Positions 8,285-47,378 of a stretch of DNA of 64,000 nucleotides are shown piece after piece. The stretch comes from Candidatus Syntrophocurvum alkaliphilum. Its GTDB lineage: Bacteria > Bacillota > Syntrophomonadia > Syntrophomonadales > Syntrophomonadaceae. The translations under genes and the position numbers were made by a program. The stretch's first letter is position 1, and each line of letters starts with the position of its first letter. The stretch is from the NCBI RefSeq assembly GCF_009734445.1, contig NZ_CP046457.1, positions 744,001 through 808,000 on the forward strand. The letters run 5' to 3'. The notes beneath the pieces were generated by a model, which saw only the letters and a program-made list of their open reading frames with translations, ran no database searches and was not told the origin of the DNA.

Positions 8285-8614
8285 TTAACCAGTGATATTA
8301 ACACTTTGGATACTAGTTAACTTTAGCTCTTTAATATCCCCATAATCATCAATTATACTAACAACTTCTTTTTTGTGATTCCATTTTAAAATATACCCAC
8401 ATATTTCATACACTGTTCCTGTAGTATTGTAGCTAATAGCAACTCTAGTATTATTACCTGCAGTTAGCAATATAACATGTTTAATTTTATTAATTTCTTC
8501 TTCAGTTTTACTATCGTTATTGTTGTTATTATAAATATTTTTTAGATTCTCTTTAAACTCTGGAATCATAAGTCTATTCCATTTTTTTGCTCCTCTATCA
8601 TTAACATCATTCAT
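8285..8614 (-). CDS. YolD-like family protein
   Basis: This 109-residue protein opens with NDRGAKKWNRLMIPEFKENL, the N-terminal signature of the YolD-like family, and has the downstream beta-rich region VAISYNTTGTVYEICGYILKW. YolD-like proteins are usually coded next to a Y-family polymerase of the UvrX type and are induced by DNA damage; their biochemical role is not settled. Here it lies 15 bases after the polymerase gene, on the same strand, so it should share the LexA-controlled promoter at 9919-9946. Confidence 0.82.
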   Translation of the reverse strand: MNDVNDRGAKKWNRLMIPEFKENLKNIYNNNNNDSKTEEEINKIKHVILLTAGNNTRVAISYNTTGTVYEICGYILKWNHKKEVVSIIDDYGDIKELKLTSIQSVNITG

Positions 8615-8629
8615 AATAAACTCCCTACC

Positions 8630-9889
8630 CTACTTATTATGGCCACCTATCTTATTTGCTCTTTCTTTAGCAGTTGCATTTTTAAATAAAGAAACCCCTT
8701 TAAATATTGAGTGCTTCCCATACTTGTTTTTTACTTCATCTAAAGCAAATGACAAACTTAAATCACGCTGATTTTCTTCATCAAAGAGCTTGAGTTGTAG
8801 GTTATCAAAGTTTTGCAGGTTACTAACGGCTACACTTACTTTTCTTACTGGAAATCCCTGATAATATTTGCGAAATAGTGAAATACATTCTTTATATATT
8901 TGATTACTGATACAACTATAATCATTCATTGTATGTGAATGCCCAAAGCCTCCACCAATATCTTTACTATATTCAATACCAAGATAAACGGTTTTACACT
9001 GTAAAAATGATTGTCTAAGCCTTAAGCCGATTTCTTCACATAGTTCTAGAATTACTATTTCAGTATCCTCACCTCCATAATCAGACATTAATGTTATACC
9101 TGTACTAATGCTCTTTTGCTCTTCTTCAAATTCCCAATCTTGTATTACTGGGGATAAATCAACACCCCAGCTATGCCAATATAATTGCTCTCCCATTACT
9201 CCAAAACGTTCTTTAAGTTTATTTAATGGAGTTGTAGCTAATTCCCCTACTTTAAAAATTCCCATGCGATTTAAGTTTTTTTGCATTCTTTTACCAATGC
9301 CCCAGATGGCTTCTACTTTTTGCGGCCATAACTTATCTTCAACATCTTTGTACTTACATTCAGCAATCCCATTTTTTTTAGCCTCTATATCAAGAATTAC
9401 TTTAGCTAGAAACTTATTAGGTCCGATTCCGATACACGAAGGTAAACCAGTTTCTTCATAAATCGTTTCTCTGATTTTTCTTGCAACTTCCCAGCGATTA
9501 CCGAATAATTTTTCTGTACCATCAGTACATATCCATGATTCATCTATAGAATAAACATCAATAGCTTCATAAGGGGCAAATTTTTCTAAAATTTGAATTA
9601 CTTTTGAAGCATAGTTAACATATAGTGCCATTCTACTTTCTACTATATGTATTTGCTTATTGTTTACTGGTATTTCAAAGAAGCGGCTTCCTGTTTTAAT
9701 ACCATAAAGTTCTTTCATTTTAGGAGAAGCAGCTAAAACAACACTACCCTTTCTGTTTTTGTTAGCTACAACTACTAAGAGAGTTTCCATAGGGTCTAAA
9801 CCTCTTTCAACAGCTTCCACTGAAGCAAAAAAAGATTTCATATCTAAACAAAGTACATTCCTAATGGGCAATTTACTATAGTCAAACAA
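8630..9889 (-). CDS. uvrX: Y-family (UvrX/DinB-like) translesion DNA polymerase
   Basis: The 419-residue protein carries the Y-family motifs LCLDMKSFFASVEAVERGLDP (first metal-binding Asp), VYSIDESWICT (SIDE motif with two catalytic acids), CIGIGPNKFLAKVILDIEAKKNGI, and the helix-hairpin-helix VEAIWGIGKRMQKNLNRMGI. This is the UvrX/YqjW type that copies past damaged bases. The start is taken as the TTG at 9889, because AGGTGAT lies just upstream and overlaps the alternative GTG at 9898. A LexA box sits inside its promoter and a YolD gene follows, the usual arrangement in Firmicutes. Confidence 0.92.
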   Translation of the reverse strand: MFDYSKLPIRNVLCLDMKSFFASVEAVERGLDPMETLLVVVANKNRKGSVVLAASPKMKELYGIKTGSRFFEIPVNNKQIHIVESRMALYVNYASKVIQILEKFAPYEAIDVYSIDESWICTDGTEKLFGNRWEVARKIRETIYEETGLPSCIGIGPNKFLAKVILDIEAKKNGIAECKYKDVEDKLWPQKVEAIWGIGKRMQKNLNRMGIFKVGELATTPLNKLKERFGVMGEQLYWHSWGVDLSPVIQDWEFEEEQKSISTGITLMSDYGGEDTEIVILELCEEIGLRLRQSFLQCKTVYLGIEYSKDIGGGFGHSHTMNDYSCISNQIYKECISLFRKYYQGFPVRKVSVAVSNLQNFDNLQLKLFDEENQRDLSLSFALDEVKNKYGKHSIFKGVSLFKNATAKERANKIGGHNK

Positions 9890-9918
9890 CTTAATCACCT
9901 AGTATTAGTTTTAATAAC

Positions 9919-9946
9919 ATTATAGCAGAACAAGCGTTCTAGTCAA
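9919..9946 (-). promoter_or_regulatory. LexA-controlled promoter of the polymerase/yolD operon
   Basis: On the minus strand there is a -35 TTGACT (9941-9946), a 16-base spacer and a -10 TATAAT (9919-9924). The spacer contains GAACGCTTGTTC (9928-9939), a perfect GAAC-N4-GTTC box as used by Firmicutes LexA. Placing the repressor site between -35 and -10 would block RNA polymerase until the SOS response removes LexA. Confidence 0.88.
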
Positions 9947-44242: not shown

Positions 44243-44587
44243 TTATCCAGCCATTTGTCTACACATTTCTGCACACTGACGACAAATCTGCGCACATTTT
44301 TGACAATGCTCATCTTTAAACATCTCGCATTCTTGAGCACATGCATCACAGATATCAGCACAAAGCTTACACAATTCTTTTGAAAAGCCACTGTTTCTAG
44401 CCATATACTGAGCTGATAATACACATATTTGTGCACAATCGTTTAATAGTTGAATACATTGTGATCGAGCTTGTACATCTGGCTCGTCTAAGCATGCTCT
44501 AAAACATTCTTCACATGCTCGGGCACATTTTAAACATTCGTCAATGCATTGATCGAGCATTTTAGGTAAAGTCATTAATATTGACAC
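44243..44587 (-). CDS. Four-helix-bundle copper-binding protein (Csp / DUF326)
   Basis: This 114-residue, Cys-rich protein has the CxxxC pattern on each helix: CIDECLKCARACEECFRAC, CIQLLNDCAQIC, LCADICDACAQECEMF and CQKCAQICRQCAEMC. Csp proteins store many Cu(I) ions within the bundle. No export signal is seen, so it is a cytosolic Csp3-like form. Start is GTG at 44587, eight bases after AAAGGAGG. It lies next to a small zinc-finger-like protein transcribed the other way. Confidence 0.93.
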   Translation of the reverse strand: MSILMTLPKMLDQCIDECLKCARACEECFRACLDEPDVQARSQCIQLLNDCAQICVLSAQYMARNSGFSKELCKLCADICDACAQECEMFKDEHCQKCAQICRQCAEMCRQMAG

Positions 44588-46661: not shown

Positions 46662-46740
46662 TTGACGGAACAATTGTTCTGCTGTATTATCATAATTGAA
46701 AAAAGAACAAACGTTCCATGCCAAAGGAGGTGAATTTTAA
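46662..46740 (+). promoter_or_regulatory. Promoter with tandem LexA boxes ahead of the 35-residue peptide
   Basis: TTGACG (46662-46667) and TATTAT (46685-46690) are 17 bases apart. GAACAATTGTTC (46668-46679), a perfect LexA box, fills the spacer. A second box, GAACAAACGTTC (46705-46716), lies about at +10. AAAGGAGGTGA then precedes the ATG by six bases. The double operator suggests very tight control. Confidence 0.88.
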
Positions 46741-46848
46741 ATGTTTGATGATTTTACAAAAAAAGATTTTTTACAAACCATATTAAGTACAATTAGTATG
46801 TTAATAGCAGGATACTTTATAATTGCTGGGGTGTTTATAATTTTTTAA
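46741..46848 (+). CDS. LexA-controlled 35-residue single-span membrane peptide
   Basis: The frame reads MFDDFTKKDFLQT and then one hydrophobic helix (ILSTISMLIAGYFIIAGVFI and IF), ending in TAA at 46846-46848. It has an excellent ribosome site and tandem LexA boxes in its promoter, so it is very probably made only during SOS. Small SOS peptides of this shape include the E. coli membrane toxin TisB and cell-division inhibitors, but I see no sequence likeness to either. It is coded alone, converging on a Nudix gene. The function is unknown; membrane depolarisation or division arrest are ideas only. Confidence 0.82.
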   Translation: MFDDFTKKDFLQTILSTISMLIAGYFIIAGVFIIF

Positions 46849-46853
46849 ACACC

Positions 46854-47378
46854 TTAGACGTTATTTGTAGGACAATCTTCTTTCAATTTTTTTATAACCT
46901 TTTTATCAGTGGAAAAGGCTAATTCTGGGAGGTTATTTAAGTTGAAAAAACCTATATCTGTTAGATCATCTCGAGCCTCAGGATAACCACCAATTATATC
47001 TCCTAAAAACCAGATACCCACACTATGCTTTTCTGGATCGTGAAAATTAGAATGAACATCATATACCCTATCTATGTTGATATCTAAATTAGTTTCCTCT
47101 TTAAATTCCCTTTTTGTTCCATCATAAACATCCTCATGGTATTCTAAATAACCACATGGAATGCACCATAGACCTTTTCTTTTGCCATATTTTCTTTTCC
47201 CAAGTAATATTTCATTTTTTTCATTAAAAACAATAGCCGCTACACCAACTGCTGGGTTTTCAAATAATATGTAAGAACAATCAGTACAGGTAAGACGAGG
47301 AATATCACCAGTTATATGTATCTGGTAATTTAACTCACTTCCACACTTTGGGCAATAAAAAAATCTTTGTTTTATCAT
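46854..47378 (-). CDS. Nudix hydrolase with N-terminal zinc ribbon
   Basis: The 174-residue protein opens with a zinc ribbon (FFYCPKCGSELN, then LTCTDCSYILFENP) and a Nudix domain starting VGVAAIVFNEKNEILLGKR. The Nudix box GYLEYHEDVYDGTKREFKEE is complete (G-x5-E-x7-RE-x2-EE). NADH pyrophosphatase-like enzymes share this ribbon, but the family also hydrolyses other nucleoside diphosphate compounds. ATG at 47378 follows GAGGTG. Confidence 0.9.
   Translation of the reverse strand: MIKQRFFYCPKCGSELNYQIHITGDIPRLTCTDCSYILFENPAVGVAAIVFNEKNEILLGKRKYGKRKGLWCIPCGYLEYHEDVYDGTKREFKEETNLDINIDRVYDVHSNFHDPEKHSVGIWFLGDIIGGYPEARDDLTDIGFFNLNNLPELAFSTDKKVIKKLKEDCPTNNV

Follow-up and report, generated by a model that had tools for sequence, protein, structure and literature searches.

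A conserved 35-residue single-span membrane peptide behind tandem LexA boxes in the Syntrophomonadaceae, and its possible role as an SOS division inhibitor

Two LexA boxes placed in front of a reading frame of only 35 codons raise the question of whether a peptide is made from it under SOS control and, if so, what such a peptide would do. The locus lies in the window, the whole stretch of 64,000 nucleotides from Candidatus Syntrophocurvum alkaliphilum that was analysed, and a preliminary description had proposed a membrane peptide made only on DNA damage, like TisB in role and acting perhaps on the membrane potential or on division. The promoter given there, TTGACG and TATTAT with 17 nt between them and a perfect box in the spacer, was matched base for base on direct reading, and the second box, which had been placed near the start, was present as well. 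The features to which we refer are the following:

46662..46667, plus strand: -35 hexamer TTGACG, touching LexA box 1 (sequence reading; best promoter match of the region)
46668..46679, plus strand: LexA box 1, GAACAATTGTTC, within the -35/-10 spacer and filling most of it
46685..46690, plus strand: -10 hexamer TATTAT, spacer 17 (sequence reading)
46705..46716, plus strand: LexA box 2, GAACAAACGTTC, at about +8 from the inferred start and 37 bp from box 1
46723..46733, plus strand: ribosome binding site, AAAGGAGGTGA (sequence reading)
46741..46848, plus strand: 35-codon frame, MFDDFTKKDFLQTILSTISMLIAGYFIIAGVFIIF, with its ATG at 46741 and the stop ending at 46848
46826..46857, plus strand: probable terminator, a 12-pair stem-loop with T-rich surroundings that overlaps the frame at its 3' end
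9928..9939, minus strand: single LexA box of the Y-family polymerase operon, GAACGCTTGTTC; first-box plan as at the peptide

The promoter was the top sigma-70-type match of the region (10/12), and the leader of the peptide gene is predicted to be about 44 nt long. Three terminator-like sites were found in the region against 0.3 expected. The neighbouring genes are lipB, which is divergent, and a NUDIX gene, which is convergent, and within the window nothing appears to be co-transcribed behind the peptide gene. Given this promoter and the terminator-like stem that overlaps the end of the frame, the gene probably stands alone. Elsewhere in the window (44243-44587) we observed a 114-residue cysteine-rich four-helix protein with regular CxxxC spacing, which resembles small copper-binding proteins.

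A lone LexA box proves nothing in this genome, since perfect GAACN4GTTC boxes are as frequent in its 2.36 Mb (16) as in the reversed control (17), and single-box counts were therefore rejected as evidence for LexA control. The tandem pair was found once in the genome and not at all in the control. What we regard as decisive for the reality of the pair is its conservation, as read from the relatives. A tblastn search with the peptide gave matches across the same family, and a profile built from 21 of the relatives found in this way detected the peptide in 41 of 54 Syntrophomonadaceae genomes (E <= 6e-5). Two sister families, represented by nine genomes, lacked it, and about 390 other Bacillota genomes gave nothing convincing, the best match (E 9e-4) lying within a 432-residue frame. 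The homologues are 33-41 residues long, mostly 35-36, with the consensus MFxGF[ST]KKEFIQ....(helix)..GY...VG...F, in which M1, F2 and Y25 are invariant. Pairwise difference at codon positions 1, 2 and 3 was 0.47, 0.30 and 0.63, and of the codons with a single difference 51% were synonymous when read in frame; for the two shifted frames the figures were 17% and 13%. A Shine-Dalgarno-like sequence precedes 40 of the 42 candidate frames. Because length, start and motif are conserved and the synonymous-codon signal is present, we conclude from the alignments that the 35-codon frame is translated and under selection; translation, supposed earlier from a single sequence, is in this way strongly supported.

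The promoter is conserved together with the frame. Two LexA boxes (each called at 7 or more of the 8 fixed bases) were found at 38 of the 41 homologues, 25-37 bp apart with a mode of 30 bp, and of the 37 homologues listed, 36 have a TTGAC or TTTAC -35 that directly touches box 1. The exceptions to the pair are two genomes in which no boxes were seen (G004 and G066) and one in which they have decayed (G030). Thus the conservation of the frame in close relatives and the paired boxes upstream, both of which the preliminary description had suggested looking for, were found. In another genome (G020, L318:4027-4130) a phage-like region has four perfect LexA boxes in a row, with no peptide downstream. 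No conserved operon partner of the peptide gene was found, its neighbours varying among the genomes; it lies tail-to-tail with lexA only in G014, and it adjoins ddl in a subclade of six genomes, with unrelated neighbours elsewhere. The presence of ddl, a cell-wall gene for D-Ala-D-Ala ligase, beside the peptide gene is seen in several Syntrophomonadaceae genera (L401, L402, L403).

The genome that carries the peptide has one clear lexA, itself with an autoregulatory box, and recA and the Y-family polymerase operon have LexA boxes too. With these, and with boxes of the Gram-positive consensus at the promoter and the pair conserved in 38/41, LexA/SOS control of the peptide gene is well supported at the level of sequence, as had been proposed; induction by DNA damage would follow from what is established about LexA and the SOS response. 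The polymerase operon (9919-9946) had been said to have the same plan, and this holds for the first box, which again lies in the spacer, but the operon has one box only. Its minus-strand promoter reads TTGACT-a-GAACGCTTGTTC-tgc-TATAAT with a spacer of 16, and downstream of it the window (8285-9898) holds the Y-family polymerase and a small YolD-like gene. Behind the LexA boxes of this genome we found no LysM or YneA-type gene.

The peptide begins with a helix cap, [ST]6-K-K-[ED]9, which is followed by a single uncharged transmembrane helix with the invariant Tyr25. An AlphaFold2 model predicts a lone helix over residues 7-34 (mean pLDDT 91). The frame ends at residue 35, which is the outer edge of the membrane, and no homologue has a LysM domain. 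Conservation on one face of the helix was looked for and not found (p = 0.91), which counts against a role in division. The peptide matched no family above cut-off in Pfam, NCBIfam or PHROGs. It was absent from phage records and viral contigs in a protein search, and matches to the DNA pattern in viral contigs yielded no member of the family, so a phage origin was rejected.

Where other Bacillota have two such boxes beside an abutting -35, the gene behind them is mainly one for a YneA-type protein (a span plus LysM) divergent from lexA, or else for a Y-family polymerase. The usual place of lexA in Syntrophomonadales is behind ttcA, and at the 29 loci no divergent YneA-type small membrane gene was found. 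We scanned 84,980 species for the DNA plan, two boxes and then ATGTTY, filtering for short hydrophobic frames, and among the matches listed were, besides the Syntrophomonadaceae peptides, single-span peptides of 30-31 residues (for example MFSKLSKTDLTLYVMFGLSLVFLYCAIAVS) that form a second set, from Virgibacillus, Paraliobacillus, Thalassobacillus and Salirhabdus. A profile of this second set detected it in 130 of 159 genomes of one halophilic Bacillaceae family and, across the wider order, in 49 of 397. At all 33 loci inspected lexA is divergent and yneB lies downstream, which is the yneA slot; in other groups the lexA-yneB slot holds YneA, ChiZ-like or SosA-like proteins. No description of the Bacillaceae peptide was found in the literature searched. 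The halophilic Bacillaceae loci at which it replaces YneA are L117, L131, L162, L166, L202, L411-L415 and L417-L444, and some of the genomes carry second copies elsewhere. In one further genome (G372, L354, minus strand) the yneA beside lexA seems to be internally deleted at the start of LysM, leaving a span-only frame of 40 residues, perhaps a snapshot of YneA reduction; its relatives G100 and G430 keep the full form.

The two sets of peptides are alike in size, in the single uncharged span, in the [ST]-K-x-[DE] helix cap, in a tyrosine at 24/25 and in a TTGAC -35 adjoined by tandem LexA boxes, and they differ in phylogenetic group and gene neighbourhood. An hhalign comparison gave P 0.0026 over 10 N-terminal columns, of which the M-F had been imposed by the search pattern; without M-F the cross-scores were not above those of random membrane segments or shuffles, and homology is not supported. 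Convergence is possible, because many helices are capped by [ST]-x-x-[DE] and residue 7 is where the predicted helix begins. What we claim for the two sets, on their sequences, is a like-for-like design and not descent. Homology to the N-termini of YneA and SosA is likewise not supported, the scores equalling those of random membrane segments, and this counts against a role in division.

By analogy we think it somewhat probable that the peptide is an SOS-induced division inhibitor of a transmembrane-only, SidA-like kind; both the arrest of division and FtsW as the target are suggested by position and analogy. LexA bound at both boxes, in the -35/-10 spacer and at the transcription start, would hold the gene off; upon DNA damage LexA would be cleaved and the peptide made from a stand-alone short transcript. 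Once inserted, the peptide would have its N-terminal helix cap, T-K-K-D, on the cytoplasmic side, and its transmembrane helix would restrain the building of the septal wall, the most likely site of action being FtsW or one of its partners; division would be put off until the damage is repaired. The peptide would then be the transmembrane-only counterpart of YneA, SosA and SidA. Between the membrane potential and division, which had been left as alternatives, division is favoured because the same promoter plan elsewhere drives YneA-type inhibitors and because a peptide of similar size holds the yneA slot in halophilic Bacillaceae. Counting against it, about a quarter of the Syntrophomonadaceae are without the peptide, the complete genome G020 included, and in its own genome the peptide gene is not beside lexA but 24 kb away. 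Two experimental results also count against it: the YneA span alone localises without inhibiting in B. subtilis (PMC13396833), and SosA needs its outer part (PMC6851548). Given the first of these, peptides consisting of a span only must act by the helix itself, in a manner more like SidA.

Other readings of the locus have to be set against division. One is an SOS toxin like TisB of Escherichia coli, which would lower the membrane potential, slow growth and make persisters. TisB, with 29 residues, is of the same size class, is likewise SOS-induced and acts at the membrane; a high dose of a short hydrophobic peptide can harm the membrane; and the leader and frame together fold somewhat better than shuffles (z -2.2). 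TisB, however, forms an amphipathic helix that bears charges, and it is controlled by an antisense RNA and by its leader, whereas the span described here is essentially uncharged (a mean of 0.03 charged residues at positions 13-35 over 40 members), and the predicted leader of about 44 nt is short for a control region of the TisB type. The invariant Tyr25, Gly30 and the capped N-terminus suggest a specific partner. We consider a toxin of this kind improbable, and the TisB-like role in the preliminary description is not supported. Only a little less improbable is an SOS-induced regulator of some other membrane protein (a protease, a transporter, a respiratory or ATP-synthase subunit), a reading in which division plays no part. 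It is common for a small single-span protein to regulate a larger membrane protein, and the genes beside the peptide, ddl in the six-genome subclade and unrelated ones elsewhere, indicate no partner; the promoter plan and the slot of the Bacillaceae peptide, however, point to the role of YneA.

A third reading, that of a chance frame or functionless leader peptide behind LexA boxes, might draw on the chance-level frequency of single boxes in the genome. It is set against length, start, motif, synonymous signal and promoter, all conserved across 41 genomes, and nothing appears to be co-transcribed behind the frame in the window; conservation in effect excludes it, and we give it hardly any weight.

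Gram-positive SOS division inhibitors are thought to require an outer domain, LysM in YneA and the tail in SosA. If the division reading is right, two conserved helix-only sets, one of them in the yneA slot, would show that the helix alone suffices, and the peptides would be the smallest natural probes of the septal synthase; the missing checkpoint gene of syntrophic Clostridia would also be filled. We put at about even the broader proposal that SOS peptides with a transmembrane helix alone, 30-36 residues long, form a widespread and as yet unnamed class of Gram-positive division inhibitors, which would have arisen or been reduced at least two times (in Syntrophomonadaceae and, at the yneA slot, in halophilic Bacillaceae) and would halt septal wall synthesis without an outer domain. 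For the Bacillaceae set genetically tractable relatives exist.

Among known systems, small single-span proteins whose genes adjoin lexA serve as the SOS division inhibitors of Gram-positive bacteria, and for SosA, later proven to be a division inhibitor, this position was the first ground for suspicion (PMC6851548). Like the peptide, SosA of Staphylococcus is small, SOS-induced and single-span without LysM, but it has 77 residues, an essential outer tail and a place beside lexA; with 35 residues, no outer tail and no significant sequence similarity, the peptide falls outside that family. YneA of Bacillus and ChiZ share with it a bitopic design and the same kind of tandem-box promoter. The YneA span binds TM7 of FtsW, with K5, E6, F10, V11 and F14 essential, so that a lysine and a glutamate just before the span matter, and AlphaFold 3 models also put SosA, ChiZ and SidA on FtsW (PMC13396833). 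The peptide, too, has K-K-[ED] ahead of its span; YneA differs in its LysM domain, essential for inhibition, which the peptide lacks, and the peptide gene is mostly not beside lexA, divergence from lexA being found only in the Bacillaceae set. The closest description is that of SidA from Caulobacter crescentus, a LexA-controlled, SOS-induced single span of 29 residues in the inner membrane, which has no outer domain and is sufficient to inhibit division via FtsW (PMC4211646). SidA comes from a different phylum, and the peptide is set beside it by description; what the two have in common is a tiny, span-only peptide under LexA control.
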